Assembly: GCA_020629035.1 (NCBI GenBank)
Contig: JAHDEC010000001.1
Span: 186,001-250,000, forward strand
Direction of reading: 5' to 3'
Origin: Saprospiraceae bacterium
Lineage (GTDB): Bacteria; Bacteroidota; Bacteroidia; Chitinophagales; Saprospiraceae
DNA length: 64,000 nucleotides
Shown here: piece by piece, positions 36,824 to 42,847 of the stretch
Layout of the letters: every line of letters begins with the position of its first letter
Numbering within the stretch: position 1 is the first letter of the stretch
Translations under genes and position numbers: made by a program
The notes under the pieces: generated by a model
The model's database searches: none
Told to the model about the DNA's origin: nothing
What the model saw: only the letters and a program-made list of their open reading frames with translations

Positions 36824-36898
36824 GAAAAAGCAAACATATTTTTTAGTCAAGTCAATTAATCTTATTTTGGGGTAACGAATTGATCAATTTTATCACTT

Positions 36899-37492
36899 TT
36901 GGATAGTAAGCCTGTAAGTAACAAAAAGATTTTAGACCAAATAAGATCAGGTAAGTCTGGGCGAGATGAGGTAATTAAGCAGCTTTATCATGACCAAAGC
37001 CTAAAGAATACCATCATAAGTTTGGTTATTAAAAACGGAGGTAATGAAGAAAATGCTACAACAGTATTTAATTCTACGCTTATCCAGTTTGTTAAAACAG
37101 TGATAAAAAATGAGGATATGAAGATTGATACTTCAATTCGACAATATTTAATCGGGATTTCAAAATACATTTGGTATAAAGCATTATCAGATCGTAAAAA
37201 ACACCGAAGCGAAGAACTTCAAGCATTTCATGATAATGCGGATAGTATCCAACCTGAAGCGCTCGTTATTTTCCAAGAGAAAAAGGAGTTATTATCAGAG
37301 ATACTCGAGCAGTTAGGTCGTAATTGTAAAGAAGTACTTATGCACTGGGCAAATGGTTATAGAATGCATAAGATAGCTGAAATGCTAGGTTACCAAAGTG
37401 AAGGTATGGCCAAGAAGAAAAAGTACAAATGTATGAAGCAACTCTTGGCTTATATCGAAGCTAATCCTAATATTAAAGCTGCTTTAAGATGA
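36899..37492 (+). CDS. ECF-like RNA polymerase sigma factor
   Basis: 197 residues from a TTG start at 36899; no ATG is suitably placed. Region 2-like helices occupy about 45-110 (VFNSTLIQFVKTVIKN, QYLIGISKYIWYKAL) and region 4 about 125-185, with a helix-turn-helix EVLMHWANGYRMHKIAEMLG followed by SEGMAKKKKYKCMKQLL. It is diverged from ordinary ECF factors but has the sigma4 pattern. Its stop overlaps (ATGA) the start of a membrane TPR protein, the usual anti-sigma arrangement. The likely targets are the nearby envelope genes, including the CHAT lipoprotein. Confidence 0.82.
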   Translation: MDSKPVSNKKILDQIRSGKSGRDEVIKQLYHDQSLKNTIISLVIKNGGNEENATTVFNSTLIQFVKTVIKNEDMKIDTSIRQYLIGISKYIWYKALSDRKKHRSEELQAFHDNADSIQPEALVIFQEKKELLSEILEQLGRNCKEVLMHWANGYRMHKIAEMLGYQSEGMAKKKKYKCMKQLLAYIEANPNIKAALR

Positions 37493-38148
37493 TTGATTTT
37501 TTCGAATACATAGAAGATTATCTAGAAAACAATTTGTCAGCAGATAAACGACTGGGTTTTGAGGAAGCACTTAAAGAGGATGCCAGTCTACAAGCAGCAC
37601 TTGATAATTTTCCGACAGCCAAAACGCTAAGTGAGGGATTACTCGAGCTGGATATTCTTGAGACCATTGAAGGCTTTGAAACGGCAGAGGCAGCTGCAGC
37701 GAGAAATATAAGCGATGATAAAACTGCTCCAAAAGTTAAACGATTAAATACTAGAAAGTGGGCGATGGCTGCAAGCTTTGTTGGTCTAATAGGTGTAGGA
37801 TACTGGGGACTAAGAAACGCACAAACAAAGCAGTTTGACAAGATATGGGAGACACAATATGAGCGGCCGTATGATACAACTACCACTAAATCCATCGACT
37901 TAAGTACTACTGATGATTTCGCTGCAGGTAAGTATTATTTTTCTCTCAATGATTTTGATAAAGCGGAACAATTTCTTGATAAAGTACTTGCAGAAAATCA
38001 AGATAGTGACACCACCAGTAAAGCTCAATACTGGTTAGGCCATGTACATATGAATCGACAAGAATGGGATTTAGCCATTAAATCCTTGAAGCAAAGTCGG
38101 GAGGAAAAAGCAGTTTCCAGTATTGAATTGATAGAAAAAATAAAGTAA
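37489..38148 (+). CDS. Membrane anti-sigma-like protein with TPR tail
   Basis: 219 residues. The N-terminal about 60 residues are acidic and helical (FFEYIEDYLENNLSADKRLG), like cytoplasmic anti-sigma domains. One transmembrane helix lies at about 91-107 (WAMAASFVGLIGVGYWGL). The outside part holds TPR-like helices (AAGKYYFSLNDFDKAEQFLD; AQYWLGHVHMNRQEWDLAIK). The start codon overlaps the sigma factor stop. The arrangement (cytoplasmic binding domain, one membrane span, periplasmic TPR sensor) suggests it holds the sigma factor inactive until a periplasmic signal. This is inferred from architecture. Confidence 0.75.
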   Translation: MIDFFEYIEDYLENNLSADKRLGFEEALKEDASLQAALDNFPTAKTLSEGLLELDILETIEGFETAEAAAARNISDDKTAPKVKRLNTRKWAMAASFVGLIGVGYWGLRNAQTKQFDKIWETQYERPYDTTTTKSIDLSTTDDFAAGKYYFSLNDFDKAEQFLDKVLAENQDSDTTSKAQYWLGHVHMNRQEWDLAIKSLKQSREEKAVSSIELIEKIK

Positions 38149-38162
38149 TAGGCCCTTTAAAA

Positions 38163-39440
38163 TCAAATGGCCTTATAAGCATCAATTAAATTTTCCAAAT
38201 CGCTTTTGTCTGTAAATGGATCTCCGGGAACTGTTACGCCTTCTTTAGATAATTCTACTTTAATATATTCGATAATGTTGTGTCTTCTTAAGTCAATTCT
38301 AGCATCAAATTGTTGTTTTATATATTCGTTTCTAGAAAGGTTGAGGCTAGCTTTTTTATTCAAAAAACGATCATAGTATGCTGAGTAGTAGCTTTCAATC
38401 GCGGTCGAATCTTGCCCTCTCAGTGGTACTATTTGTTTGTTTTGATAATCTATAAATGGAGCTATATTGTCTTTTTCGCAAAAGAATTTTGAATGATCTA
38501 CATGGATCATATCTATCACGGGGCAAGGAGGAAGCTGGTCATTGCAATCTAATTGTATTCTTGGAATTTTGTAATCACTCTGATAGTTGTTAATATCTAT
38601 GTCTGAAGAAAATCCATTAATTTCAATTACCTCACTCATGTTTAAGACATAGCCACAAGCAACTAACTGTGGGCAGAGCATATGATACACTGATTTGTAG
38701 GTATTGCTTACTGGGTCAAAAACAGAATACAAAGCATCATTTTCAGTTGGAATAAATTCATGAATAAATTCATGAACAAAAACCTGTTCAATATTGAGTA
38801 ATGATAAAGTCTTAAAAACTAAGACATGTTGTTCATCCATTCCTGTGGCTTCATAGTCTAAATAATCAGCGATGCTGGTTCCAAGAAAATCACTTGATGG
38901 ATTATAGAAGATATGATGGTTAACATTTGTATTGAGCATATTTTGTGATAACATATAACTCACGATTTCATCATCACTATTTAAGTACTCATTCGCAAGT
39001 ATATCAGAAGGTTGTTCATAGGAAGCACTAGATACCACTTGAATGTTATGGCCAATAAAATGTCGATTTAGAAATGCATTTACCTTAGTTTGAAAGTCCG
39101 GCTCCAATTCAGCAAAAGCTGTACTCGGGTAATAAAAAGCAAAATCAACTATTTCATTTTCTGAAATAGAAGCACTTGATTCGTAAGTCATTTTACCTCC
39201 CGAAGGAATTACATAATGAGTATTAAATAGATTAAAATAAGGCCACCAGATATTGTTATTTTGTTGCATGTGTGGCACAATATCATATACATCTGTATCA
39301 TCTAATTGAGTATCAATTAAGAGAAAAGACTCGTCTTCTTGATTTGGCCAAGCATAAGAAATAAAAGCAAATAAGTACAATATTAGTACTGCAATTAAGC
39401 TTATGGTAATATATATGATAAATTGATTAGTCTTAGTCAA
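38163..39440 (-). CDS. Membrane-anchored envelope protein with an HExxH motif
   Basis: 425 residues with an N-terminal membrane anchor (residues 7-29, FIIYITISLIAVLILYLFAF) and a large exported domain. A zincin-like HEFIH lies at 223-227 inside VFVHEFIHEFIPTENDALY, with possible third ligands among the nearby Glu residues. The HEFI HEFI stretch is encoded by a perfect 12-bp tandem repeat (38751-38774), so the motif could be fortuitous. Cysteines in the C-terminal half (CPQLVACGY; CNDQLPPCP) suggest disulfides and an extracytoplasmic location. No family recognised. It overlaps the upstream lipoprotein gene by 8 bp. Confidence 0.6.
   Translation of the reverse strand: MTKTNQFIIYITISLIAVLILYLFAFISYAWPNQEDESFLLIDTQLDDTDVYDIVPHMQQNNNIWWPYFNLFNTHYVIPSGGKMTYESSASISENEIVDFAFYYPSTAFAELEPDFQTKVNAFLNRHFIGHNIQVVSSASYEQPSDILANEYLNSDDEIVSYMLSQNMLNTNVNHHIFYNPSSDFLGTSIADYLDYEATGMDEQHVLVFKTLSLLNIEQVFVHEFIHEFIPTENDALYSVFDPVSNTYKSVYHMLCPQLVACGYVLNMSEVIEINGFSSDIDINNYQSDYKIPRIQLDCNDQLPPCPVIDMIHVDHSKFFCEKDNIAPFIDYQNKQIVPLRGQDSTAIESYYSAYYDRFLNKKASLNLSRNEYIKQQFDARIDLRRHNIIEYIKVELSKEGVTVPGDPFTDKSDLENLIDAYKAI
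38751..38774. repeat. Perfect 12-bp tandem repeat creating an HEFIHEFI sequence
   Basis: AATAAATTCATG occurs twice in direct succession (38751-38762 and 38763-38774). On the minus strand it encodes HEFI twice and so creates the HExxH motif of the 425-residue protein. Confidence 0.9.
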
Positions 39441-40125
39441 ATCTATGTGTGTGAGTATCTCTTAATGAATAAATAATCTGATTATTTACATTTCCGATGA
39501 TATTAGCAAAGTATTGATTATTGTTTATTGCTGGTGTAAACTCTGATAGTGGAATATAAATATCAAATTCTGTTTGATTTGGGTCAGTTGTGTTATACAC
39601 CCTAATTTGAACATATTGAGTTCCATTAGTAGCAGAAATATTTGAGGCACTACCTTGACCAACAACGTGTATTTTTGTGTGTAAAGTTGTGGTCGGATGA
39701 TCTACATGAAGGTCCATACGTAAATTTTCAAGGACACCTGCTGTATTCTGAAATTGAACACTACCGGTTGGTATCTCATTGACAATATTTTTAGCAAATT
39801 GGATTCCATTTTGCTCTTCTATGGTAAAAAAGAAGGGACGATATATCGAATTAGGACCACATTCTTCATGCTTAAAAACCACCCCTTTTAATAGTTTCTG
39901 ATCACCTAGTGATTCATTTACAAAAACACGCATTATTCCAACGCCACTAACACCATTTTCTACAGTTGTTGGCACAGCAACAACTCCTTGAACAAATTCG
40001 TCATTTGTAATTTTCGTAATTTCTTGATTTGTAGCTTGATTTTCATTACAGTAATCTGAGCAAAAGAATTCACAGCTAGTTAATGAGCTCATCATAATTA
40101 GACAAGCTAAAGTAAATTTTTTCAT
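39433..40125 (-). CDS. Unrecognised lipoprotein in the sigma/CHAT region
   Basis: 230 residues from the ATG at 40125; a GTG 10 codons earlier is in frame but would spoil the signal. Lipoprotein signal with LTSC lipobox and a Cys-rich start (SCEFFCSDYCNENQ). The body is beta-rich (GVSGVGIMRVFVNE; TLHTKIHVVGQGSASNIS). No domain recognised. It is translated just before the HExxH protein, overlapping by 8 bp, and is divergent from the CHAT gene with 64 bp between start codons. Confidence 0.6.
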   Translation of the reverse strand: MKKFTLACLIMMSSLTSCEFFCSDYCNENQATNQEITKITNDEFVQGVVAVPTTVENGVSGVGIMRVFVNESLGDQKLLKGVVFKHEECGPNSIYRPFFFTIEEQNGIQFAKNIVNEIPTGSVQFQNTAGVLENLRMDLHVDHPTTTLHTKIHVVGQGSASNISATNGTQYVQIRVYNTTDPNQTEFDIYIPLSEFTPAINNNQYFANIIGNVNNQIIYSLRDTHTHRFD

Positions 40126-40189
40126 AGGAATTGATATTTTTAACAACAAGTACACAATTCTTTAAAAAAGTGACCCTCTAGTTGATCAA

Positions 40190-42847
40190 ATGTTTAAAAA
40201 AAAATACACTACACCTTTAATTAAGGATTTTTTTTTGAAAAAAACAAAATTACTGTTTAATAAATTAAGCAGAAATGAACTAATATTTTGCATAAGCTAC
40301 AAATTGCAATTTTTTATTTTCAGTGTTATTTTGTTAAGTTTCTCTTGCGAAAACAAAAAGCATAAAACCTTTCATAACTACCTGGAAGCATTTTGGTTAA
40401 ATGATGTTTCGCAGCAAATTTCAATTATAAACGAAACCAGCGATTCAACAATCTTAAAGCAATTATTATACTTTAATCGACCCCAAACGCTCGTGAAACA
40501 CGATCTAAATGATGAATTTTTACACGAGAGACTTGAACTTTTAAATAAGTTGGAAACTTCATTCGATTCTTTGACGATTAGTAAGTTAACGGCTTTGAAT
40601 ACTCAAAAAAGTGTCACTTCTTTTCAATCGGAGCTATTGTATAACCAAATACAAATTGCTTTACTAAAGGAAATATCTTATAGCCGTATTCTACCTTTTG
40701 CAAAAGAAAAAGAAAAGCATTTATCGAAAAAGTATATTGACACATCTCAGTTATTGTACAAGTATTTTTTCTATTTAAATGATATAAAAAAAAATAAGCT
40801 TCTGGAAGGACAAAAATTAGGTCAGCTTGCTACTACCAATATGCATTTGTCCCAAATCAATCAATATGAGAATCATGCATTTAAATACTACTTTGAATCA
40901 TTTTTGAGAGCAGATGCTTCAATTTACGCTATTAAAGAATTTGGATTTAATCAATATGAGAATCTCTTGAATTTTCAATTGCAAAAGCTGAAAAAATTAA
41001 AAGGTGTTTCGGATACTCAAATAAAGATTATCGAATCTTACGTGCTTGAAGATCAAGGAAAAAATAAAGAATCCCTTCTTTTGCTAAACGATCAGATTGA
41101 TAAAATTGACAAGGCAAAAGATAAGTATAGGACCTCTTTAAATTTGGGTGTGGCCTACCTAGAAATAAACCCTGATAGTGCATTTCATTATTTTAATAAA
41201 GCACATCTATTGTTTGAAAATTGGCCATGTCATGCTAAAAATATTATTCCATTAGTATATTTAATTCATTCTGCACAAGATAGATCAAGCTTTGTTGATT
41301 ACAGAGAAAAGTTAAAATCCCTGTACAACTGCCCAGATAAGAATGGTTATTATGCAGAATTTATTGGTCTAGACTTTTTAAGGGATCATCCATTTTCTAA
41401 TTACAGTATTGCCGAAAGAATTGATATAAATAACCGACGGAAAACCTTGGCTGAAATGATTTGGACGGGAAAAGAGTCTTTTCATATTCAAGATATTTAT
41501 GCATACATAACTTCAGACTTGTTGCAACTATATCAAGATGACCCAAAGGCAATTGAAAATGATGGATTTACAACCATCATCAACTTATTCCAAGAAACAA
41601 AAATCCAAGAGCTAAAAAGAAAACGCTTCGAGGACCAAAGCTATGTACTTAGCGAAAGCCAAAAACAAACAGAAAATCGTATTAGTGAAATACTTAAAAC
41701 CACTAATGAATTCCTAGATACACTCTATGATGGAGACCCGATGTATATCGAGTTATATAACTTAATGGTTGAGAAACAATCCTGGTCTCAAAACCTTTCA
41801 GCAAGCGATTTAGGCCTAGCACAAAAACCGCTTAACGAACAATCATTAGCTCAACTAAAAAAGCTAAACACGCTTGAGTATTTTGTATTACATGATATCT
41901 ATTGGTACTATTACTTTGATGGCGATAAGCTTCAGCTTGGACAGTTTAATGGGAAGAAGCTAGATTCACTCCTACAAAACTTTAATGAACAACTTATAAC
42001 TTTAAAAAATCCTCAAGCACAAATCAAGGAATTACGAGCACTTATTTTACCTAAGGATTTATCATGCAACAAAAATGTCCTAATCTTAGCAGATGGAAAC
42101 ACCTTTCAAATACCATTTGATCTATTACTTCCTGATAAAAGCATCTTTTATCATTTCGACCTTAACGAATATATTTCGATGGACACGATAAACTTAACGG
42201 AGCCAACTATAGGCTTAATAAGCTACACAGATAAACAAACGCAAAACTCAACTCAGTTAAAGGAATATCCAGAACTACCTCTTGGATGGCAAGAAACACA
42301 AACGATCGGAAGTTATTTTCCTCCAAATAAAATTCAATCAATAGCTGGTTACCAGCTAAATAAACACTCATTTGAATCTGCTCTAGATATGGACATTGCA
42401 CATATATCAAGCCATGCTTCCATGAACATGAACAACCGGCTTGATAATTATATCCTTGTGCGCAATGCCGAAGGCAAATCGGATAAATTATATAGCTATG
42501 AGATTGAGAATCTACCCCAAGCGCCTCAAGTGGTAACCCTATCGGCATGCGAAACAGGGACTGGCGCACACCGAAATGGAGCTGGCACATACTCGATAAG
42601 CCGTGCTTTTTTGCATGCAGGATCATCATCCATCATAAAATCCTTATGGAAAGTTAATGAAAAAGCAACCTCTGTATTTATGCCCGCGCTTTACAAACAT
42701 TGGCAGCAAGGATTATCATTAGGTGAAGCGCTTAACCAAGCAAAAGAAGAGGTTCGCCAAATGGAAGCATTCAAACACCCATATTTTTGGGCAGGATTCA
42801 TACTGGAAGGAAACCCTAATATTTATTTAGAAAGGGATTCGCAATAA
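40190..42847 (+). CDS. TPR-CHAT protease-like lipoprotein
   Basis: 885 residues. A Lys-rich N-terminal extension of about 35 residues precedes a hydrophobic segment ending in a lipobox (LSFSC, Cys53), so it is probably an envelope lipoprotein; a TTG at codon 16 could be the true start. Residues about 60-560 are helical TPR-like repeats (SLNLGVAYLEINPDSAFHYF). The C-terminal about 300 residues are a CHAT domain: catalytic His742 in HISSHASMNM and Cys787 in TLSACETGTGAHRNGAG, then SIIKSLWKVNEKAT and FKHPYFWAGFILEGNP. CHAT proteases are caspase/separase relatives (for example craspase). The context with sigma and anti-sigma genes suggests regulated envelope proteolysis. Confidence 0.87.
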   Translation: MFKKKYTTPLIKDFFLKKTKLLFNKLSRNELIFCISYKLQFFIFSVILLSFSCENKKHKTFHNYLEAFWLNDVSQQISIINETSDSTILKQLLYFNRPQTLVKHDLNDEFLHERLELLNKLETSFDSLTISKLTALNTQKSVTSFQSELLYNQIQIALLKEISYSRILPFAKEKEKHLSKKYIDTSQLLYKYFFYLNDIKKNKLLEGQKLGQLATTNMHLSQINQYENHAFKYYFESFLRADASIYAIKEFGFNQYENLLNFQLQKLKKLKGVSDTQIKIIESYVLEDQGKNKESLLLLNDQIDKIDKAKDKYRTSLNLGVAYLEINPDSAFHYFNKAHLLFENWPCHAKNIIPLVYLIHSAQDRSSFVDYREKLKSLYNCPDKNGYYAEFIGLDFLRDHPFSNYSIAERIDINNRRKTLAEMIWTGKESFHIQDIYAYITSDLLQLYQDDPKAIENDGFTTIINLFQETKIQELKRKRFEDQSYVLSESQKQTENRISEILKTTNEFLDTLYDGDPMYIELYNLMVEKQSWSQNLSASDLGLAQKPLNEQSLAQLKKLNTLEYFVLHDIYWYYYFDGDKLQLGQFNGKKLDSLLQNFNEQLITLKNPQAQIKELRALILPKDLSCNKNVLILADGNTFQIPFDLLLPDKSIFYHFDLNEYISMDTINLTEPTIGLISYTDKQTQNSTQLKEYPELPLGWQETQTIGSYFPPNKIQSIAGYQLNKHSFESALDMDIAHISSHASMNMNNRLDNYILVRNAEGKSDKLYSYEIENLPQAPQVVTLSACETGTGAHRNGAGTYSISRAFLHAGSSSIIKSLWKVNEKATSVFMPALYKHWQQGLSLGEALNQAKEEVRQMEAFKHPYFWAGFILEGNPNIYLERDSQ

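Follow-up and report, generated by a model that had tools for sequence, protein, structure and literature searches.

Proteases that join tetratricopeptide repeats (TPRs) to a CHAT peptidase domain are best known from the cytosolic Craspase and gasdermin systems. Here we describe a five-gene locus at positions 36899–42847 of a 64,000-nucleotide stretch of a Saprospiraceae genome (assembly GCA_020629035.1, contig JAHDEC010000001.1, positions 186,001–250,000 of the forward strand; hereafter the window). It encodes a predicted TPR-CHAT lipoprotein, a sigma/anti-sigma-like pair and, on the opposite strand, a pair of predicted envelope proteins.

In type III-E Craspase the TPR-CHAT protein Csx29 cuts Csx30, an inhibitor of CASP-sigma (PMC10028731). 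A TPR-CHAT protease, an anti-sigma and a sigma (RpoE) are encoded together there (PMC10028731, PMC9729208); in the window a CHAT gene lies with sigma- and anti-sigma-like genes whose labels score below their cut-offs. The window locus differs in that its CHAT protein is a predicted lipoprotein, its anti-sigma-like protein is predicted to span the membrane and carries TPRs, and a HExxH protein and an oligonucleotide/oligosaccharide-binding (OB)/histidine protein are added. CHAT substrates are often encoded nearby (PMC9729208), and the bacterial gasdermin-activating CHATs likewise act on such a product (PMC9729208), as is proposed here; in contrast to these systems the module is predicted to be envelope-located, and no gasdermin family is among the Pfam matches of its five proteins at E ≤ 1. 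RseA/DegS and RsiW provide the precedent of an anti-sigma with one transmembrane segment and a protease acting outside the membrane (PMC10028731), whereas for the module a CHAT lipoprotein from the same locus is proposed as the site-1 protease. Members of the ECF54 group of extracytoplasmic function (ECF) sigma factors have CHAT, subtilase or carboxypeptidase genes in their context and are proposed to function without an anti-sigma (PMC8999054); the module also places an ECF-like sigma gene beside a protease gene, but has an anti-sigma-like gene. Also described are systems of caspase type that include an ECF sigma and a TPR gene (PMC8195603). Finally, animals have OB-fold inhibitors of metzincins, the N-terminal domain of TIMPs being an OB fold (PMC9409782). 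Matrixins (M10) with their TIMPs resemble the module in pairing with a HExxH partner, metzincin-related at some loci, a protein that in the module has a predicted OB fold; unlike TIMPs, the module's OB-type protein has cold-shock-type proteins as its best structural matches and five conserved histidines, and inhibition is here a proposal. No description of the five-gene module was found in the literature searched, most subscription journals and preprints being outside its reach. The five genes are:

36899..37492, plus strand: P0001, ECF-like sigma factor, 197 residues, TTG start (TIGR02937, E 8.5e-8, below cut-off)
37489..38148, plus strand: P0002, TPR protein with one predicted transmembrane segment and anti-sigma architecture, 219 residues (hydrophobic segment, TPR_2, gene position)
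38163..39440, minus strand: P0003, divergent metzincin-like protein with an HExxH motif and an anchor at its N-terminus, 425 residues (motif, family matches)
39433..40125, minus strand: P0004, small predicted lipoprotein, 230 residues, founder of an unnamed family (alignments, profile searches)
40190..42847, plus strand: P0005, predicted TPR-CHAT lipoprotein, 885 residues, true start possibly downstream (PF12770, 134.8 bits)

This arrangement, including an overlap of the sigma and anti-sigma-like genes, had been described in an earlier note made from the DNA alone and was borne out by the window's list of open reading frames (ORFs), in which the overlap (36899–37492 and 37489–38148) is 4 bases. 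The divergent minus-strand pair P0004 and P0003 separates the sigma/anti-sigma genes from the CHAT gene. A Pfam scan of the five window proteins gave no match at E ≤ 1 for either member of the pair.

A recurrent module paired with one group of CHAT proteins

Single-sequence searches with P0003 and P0004 gave matches in 2 of 150 genomes each, the source genome included, and these relatives were confined to the genus. In G002 all five genes are contiguous, and in G001 the CHAT, P0004 and P0003 genes lie together with the sigma pair about 4 kb off (G001 and G002 are genus relatives of the source genome; L numbers denote individual loci). Beside the closest CHATs of other genera stands a gene whose small product ends in H-x-H, and the gene after it encodes a protein with HE..H; in alignments these relatives of P0004 and P0003 are 16–21% identical to them. 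A profile built from seven P0004 relatives returned 12 strong matches (E ≤ 4.2e-11) from 398 Saprospiraceae genomes, namely the seven input sequences and five new ones. As an independent test, all five loci found from this profile alone adjoin CHAT and HE..H genes. Four further module loci came from a search of named records with the CHAT alignment; a second P0004 profile that included those four re-found the genomes of L164, L165, L166 and L170 and is not independent.

Altogether, 17 module loci with CHAT, P0004-type and HE..H genes were found in 17 Saprospiraceae genomes: 16 from the two profile searches (398 Saprospiraceae genomes each) and one, L072 in genome G085, by hand. L151 (genome G356), found by the first profile and unlisted by the second, was kept for its gene order and its five-histidine pattern (see below). 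L072 was found by neither P0004 profile; the profiles thus miss true members, and rarer or more distant ones may exist. The full module is rare in Saprospiraceae, and in the genomes searched P0004-type proteins were confined to this bacterial family. A phylum-wide search of 395 genomes returned only the window's own genome as convincing, and no P0004-type ORF was present in 28 named loci outside the group (L173–L200), which belong mostly to other families and phyla. Weak profile matches were dropped in G128, G201 and G345 (ORFs of 900–930 residues), G262 (72 residues, three stops), G207 (69 residues, four stops) and G482 (a 458-residue ORF matching profile positions 2–60 only). At L163 and L171 a small histidine-rich protein that matches neither P0004 profile nor pattern is encoded beside the CHAT gene, with no HE..H gene; both proteins had entered one P0004 alignment, and both loci were left outside the 17. 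L161 and L168 are too shortened by contig ends to judge.

At 17 of 17 loci the P0004-type and HE..H genes share a strand, the former immediately 5' of the latter, and their spacing ranges from 62 bases of overlap to 15 bases apart when the first possible start codons are used. HExxH or HE..H is likewise present at 17 of 17, being part of the module definition, against 7 of 289 background ORFs of 200–600 residues. Relative to the CHAT gene the pair is divergent at most loci and convergent at L151 and L072; at L165 and L166 all five genes run in one direction (sigma, anti-sigma, P0004, HExxH, CHAT). The co-occurrence of the five genes in relatives, which the earlier note had proposed as a check, was found within the fetched stretch at 13 of the 17 loci, where the sigma and anti-sigma genes complete the set; in G054 the sigma pair is on another contig.

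Among 39 other CHAT loci (40 hand-picked from the CHAT match list, one without a usable CHAT ORF), a sigma/anti-sigma pair was present in the region of 18 and within 2.5 kb of 14. Conversely, a CHAT gene was found in the region of 12 out of 17 P0001/P0002-like pairs (20 regions fetched, minus three without a detected pair). The sigma/anti-sigma/CHAT set is common in Saprospiraceae, and the divergent P0004/P0003 pair is the distinguishing part of the module.

The module is associated with a single group of CHATs. A tree built from 79 CHAT domains, rooted at the midpoint only and with bootstrap values not fully settled, has a branch (95/89) that splits off 24 rows, which comprise all 15 module-labelled rows, L072, L163 and L171, L161 and L168, and four module-free rows. 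The 50 loci behind the 55 rows of the other side contain no ORF matching the P0004 profile or the five-histidine pattern.

Within the same CHAT group, an S8 subtilase (E 4.7e-36) is encoded one gene from the CHAT at L204 (11376–12902) and an S41 protease (E 8.7e-33) one gene from that at L069 (10147–11049), as if the second protease were exchangeable at these two loci.

Predicted properties of the five proteins

The most likely start codon of P0004 is the ATG at 40125, not the GTG at 40155, and read from this ATG the protein carries a predicted lipoprotein signal, MKKFTLACLIMMSSLTS-C. Its two parts are:

39772..40020, minus strand: residues 36–118, cold-shock-domain-like OB fold (AlphaFold model, structural and profile comparison)
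39436..39774, minus strand: C-terminal half with five invariant histidines, H-x8-H-x3-H and, at the C terminus, H-x-H (alignment)

The five histidines are invariant in 13 of 13 aligned relatives. The pattern occurs at 17 of 17 loci, although L164, L165, L166 and L072 were accepted partly on this pattern, which was itself derived from these sequences; as a control, it was found in 0 of 249 background ORFs of 180–300 residues. An AlphaFold model built with 13 sequences had a pLDDT of 61, with a usable N-terminal half (61–89 in 10-residue blocks at residues 36–118). For this half the best match in VIA-align was the cold-shock domain of YB-1 (Z 7.5, rmsd 1.6, 66 residues), a Z below the tool's caution line of 8, and rows 1–43 of the re-alignment of Foldseek matches were cold-shock-type chains by their titles; Foldseek itself gave no row at E ≤ 0.001 with the P0004 model. 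Profile comparison of the N-terminal half with the Protein Data Bank (PDB) yielded seven weak matches, none significant, of which the best five were cold-shock domains (E 0.12–0.73). The aromatic RNP1/RNP2 residues typical of cold-shock proteins are not conserved in the P0004-family alignment. Because these nucleic-acid residues are not kept, P0004 is called OB/cold-shock-domain-like and not a cold-shock protein. The C-terminal half gave no profile match in the PDB, the family as a whole no consistent Pfam or PDB match, and scans of PADLOC, NCBIfam and PHROGs nothing useful for P0004. Suspected resemblances to M23/LAS peptidases and to TIMPs were not confirmed, neither being among the VIA rows listed. 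On the basis of its alignments P0004 founds a new family of small, predicted exported proteins.

P0003 has an N-terminal hydrophobic anchor, no lipobox, and the following motif:

38760..38774, minus strand: HEFIH, residues 223–227 of P0003 (invariant in 13 aligned sequences)

HExxH is thus present, and the glycine and third ligand of the motif HExxHxxGxxH/D are out of place. Pfam M10 was matched by 3 of 13 members of the P0003 family at E ≤ 1, above cut-off in L164 only (26.3 against 24), and the best PDB profile match of the HE..H family was Bft (E 0.069). By eye, HExxHxxxxxH occurs at 5 of the 17 loci, with the full HExxHxxGxxH in L167, L169 and L147 and close variants in L072 and L164, and [NSC][ILV]M is found within 50 residues in 10 of the 17 HE..H proteins. 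By these motifs a few HE..H partners are recognisable metzincins and P0003 itself is divergent. The VIA list for P0003 (best Z 4.6) was not used, its model being too poor for fold comparison. The HE..H proteins of L165 (7411–8286) and L166 (7482–8264) are without a hydrophobic N-terminus, though their partner looks exported.

P0005 is assigned to the CHAT peptidase family by its PF12770 score (134.8 bits against a cut-off of 24) and its predicted His/Cys dyad, and has the following features:

42413..42415, plus strand: catalytic His742 (motif and CHAT alignment)
42548..42550, plus strand: catalytic Cys787 (motif and CHAT alignment)
40349..41089, plus strand: residues 54–300, rapidly changing N-terminal region (24% identity to G002)

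The intact His742 and Cys787 were present as first described, and H738 and a lipobox-like Cys53 are carried besides. Cys53 is invariant across 11 aligned CHAT proteins. The dyad is kept in 16 of 16 alignable module CHATs (the remaining one is truncated where its contig ends) and in all 79 CHAT domains compared; the loss in most orthologues that the earlier note had named as a refutation was not seen. Of the label TPR-CHAT, the CHAT part held, whereas the TPR part is barely visible to Pfam (TPR_17, E 0.078). Searching PDB sequences with phmmer found no CHAT entry for P0005 up to E 1; both of the two matches were to RNA polymerase I A49.

For P0001 the label of ECF-like sigma factor is at the superfamily level only: TIGR02937 matched with E 8.5e-8 but 32 bits, under its NCBIfam cut-off of 42.9, and no Pfam sigma family was found at E ≤ 1. 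P0001 is 79% identical to its relative in G002 and 65% to that in G001, and both have GTG in place of its TTG start. P0002 consists of a short N-terminal part, a hydrophobic segment at about residues 90–108 (weak, 1.12) and C-terminal TPRs (TPR_2, E 1.5e-7 in Pfam); the NCBIfam anti-sigma model NF052375 matched with E 2.9e-5 and 24.2 bits, below its cut-off of 100. A single hydrophobic segment is found in the module anti-sigmas. Between this segment and the TPRs lies a conserved stretch:

37858..37893, plus strand: residues 124–135 of P0002, YERPYDTTTTKS, Y..P..[RK][SGT] (conserved; candidate cut site)

All 16 anti-sigmas in the module set, which come from 14 module genomes and from L163 and L171, carry the stretch, against a mean of 2.0 and a maximum of 7 of 16 in shuffled linkers; at other CHAT/sigma loci 20 of 28 anti-sigmas have it. 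Its conserved basic residue is a possible candidate cut site.

Rapid change and an upstream box

Comparison of the window with G002 revealed identities of 61–90% for eight flanking genes, 79% for the sigma, 61% for the anti-sigma, 44% for the CHAT, 28% for P0004 and 24% for P0003; a further four window ORFs fall outside the part of G002 that was fetched and are unmatched. Within P0005, residues 54–300 are 24% identical and the CHAT core (690–885) 67%. Catalytic and metal-type residues survive amid this fast change, which we read as diversifying pressure on the putatively outward-facing parts and their contacts. The persistence of the motifs and ORFs at 17 loci makes relaxed constraint less likely. 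The block, kept in G002, includes radical SAM- and glycosyltransferase-like genes, named by eye from their sequences. Window positions 36840–36905, before the sigma gene, are by eye nearly unchanged in G002 up to the start codon, unlike the nearby module proteins.

Comparison of upstream regions revealed a box, GGT(C/A)AC, at two positions of the locus:

36870..36876, plus strand: GGGTAAC, about 28 bases before the sigma start
40170..40176, minus strand: GGGTCAC, in the divergent P0004/P0005 intergenic region, reading towards P0004

The box is found before 5 of 14 sigma genes (1 of 195 other ORFs) and 5 of 17 P0004-type genes (3 of 195), figures that are optimistic, as the box was noticed first and then counted and three positive loci come from one genus. 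The string GGGTCACTTT occurs 7 times in the genome, compared with 5 times for a control string; one occurrence is this promoter, and of the remaining six, five are within an ORF, so that no regulon is defined. At L151 (1039–4372) GGGTCAC stands before the CHAT gene and reads away from it, towards ORFs of 172 and 807 residues that look exported by eye; these two may be in the same regulon.

A proposed proteolytic switch weighed against its alternatives

Tentatively, and with confidence that falls somewhat short of even, we favour a sensor-switch that works by proteolysis and faces the periplasm or the surface of the cell, in which CHAT would act with Craspase-like logic on the anti-sigma, the metalloprotease partner or both. 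The variable N-terminus and TPRs of P0005 would meet a changing ligand, and this would activate a regulated cysteine protease. Active CHAT might then cut the part of P0002 that lies outside the membrane, the linker from transmembrane segment to TPRs being the simplest site, and so begin the release of P0001, which P0002 would bind; freed P0001 would raise its own operon and the P0004–P0003 operon. CHAT would also cut P0004, which is supposed to hold P0003, the output protease, in check. Action of CHAT on P0002 and on the P0004/P0003 pair is suggested by Craspase, and restraint of P0003 by P0004 by the fixed gene order, the tight spacing and the animal OB-fold inhibitors of metzincins. Which membrane the lipoproteins face, and on which side, is likewise inferred. 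The earlier proposal of an envelope-facing protease system under its own sigma is supported by the topology signals, the gene order and the box at some loci, with P0001 as the putative regulator. On this evidence the module looks like an undescribed, protein-cutting way of sensing envelope trouble.

Several results weigh against the sensor-switch. The sigma and anti-sigma genes are outside the fetched stretch at 4 of the 17 loci, and the CHAT group is not purely modular, as L027 (in the source genome), L069, L071 and L204 belong to it without the module. The box was counted only after it had been noticed, with three positive loci in one genus; 9 of 14 sigma and 12 of 17 P0004-type genes lack it, and before the sigma gene it does not fit as a simple −35 element, since its closeness to the sigma start would put the start of transcription inside the ORF. 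P0003, with neither the canonical third zinc ligand nor a clear Met-turn, could be an inactive protein; its model is poor (pLDDT 48), and the C-terminal half of the P0004 model is of low confidence. The linker motif is not CHAT-specific, occurring in 7 of 12 anti-sigmas with a CHAT in the region and in 2 of 5 without; the counts for this motif weaken the idea, once considered, of a basic Y..P..R-S linker as the mark of CHAT substrates. Lastly, cutting of Csx30 left RpoE attached to the N-terminal piece (PMC9729208), and release in the module may likewise need more steps.

In a rival reading the sigma/anti-sigma pair would sense alone and switch on CHAT, P0004 and P0003 as a cascade of attack or defence, in which CHAT matures or frees the metalloprotease against invaders, competitors or the envelope of the cell itself. 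This is unlikely, though a serious contender: envelope parts change fast within a syntenic block, as in an arms race (24–28% against 61–90% in the flanks, and 24% in the CHAT N-terminus), and the S8 and S41 proteases at L204 and L069 lie one gene away in the same CHAT group. It is countered by the surroundings, as the block kept in G002 has radical SAM- and glycosyltransferase-like genes by eye and no visible defence island, and by the defence-family matches, which amount to a single weak one for the sigma protein (CARF3 in PADLOC, E 0.022, P0001). On the same PADLOC result a role in cell death or immunity, at which the earlier note had hinted, received no direct support. The invariant histidines of P0004 and its adjoining HExxH partner would also suit a sensor of metal stress, with zinc or copper bound by the five histidines to report metal load and the HExxH protein and CHAT clearing damaged envelope proteins; we regard this as improbable, as it leaves unexplained why the remainder of P0004 and the CHAT N-terminus change so very fast, and the P0004 family lacks a consistent Pfam or PDB match.

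Two further readings carry little weight. The cold-shock-like fold and the titles of structural rows 1–43 would allow P0004 to be an exported binder of nucleic acids that triggers CHAT on detecting foreign DNA or RNA at the envelope, which is most improbable with the RNP aromatics not conserved and a Z of 7.5 under the caution line. That five unrelated envelope genes are merely held together by synteny we hardly credit at all: conservation is partly within one genus and in a syntenic block, yet 17 genomes hold the trio, whose arrangement relative to the CHAT and sigma genes takes at least five forms, and the rearranged loci disfavour chance neighbourhood.

A bolder form of the sensor-switch, which we consider doubtful as a whole, makes the module a CRISPR-free, extracytoplasmic counterpart of Craspase (no search for Cas genes or CRISPR arrays was made). 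Here a lipid-anchored TPR-CHAT would be the site-1 protease of a membrane anti-sigma and would also unlock a metzincin from a new OB-fold/five-histidine class of inhibitor, in a two-step cascade shaped by arms-race selection. An envelope lineage of CHAT, anti-sigma and sigma, with its rapidly changing front and paired HExxH protein, would offer a direct test of whether the cutting of an anti-sigma by CHAT is a general bacterial logic that CRISPR systems have borrowed, and it brings a new family of small proteins whose partner gene is defined.

The module may also help to explain the abundance of CHAT genes in Saprospiraceae genomes. The source genome holds six, and CHAT matches were present in 136 of 150 Saprospiraceae genomes searched.

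First-look CHAT candidates numbered up to 64 in one genome (G078), and more than one CHAT gene was found close together at L209, L211, L213, L224 and L236 in other Saprospiraceae (tree rows). In the source genome, L027 (G000:C59, 4100–8931) encodes a CHAT paralogue from the module's CHAT group, a sigma/anti-sigma-like pair of its own and a 263-residue protein that by eye resembles secreted cargo of the type IX secretion system.

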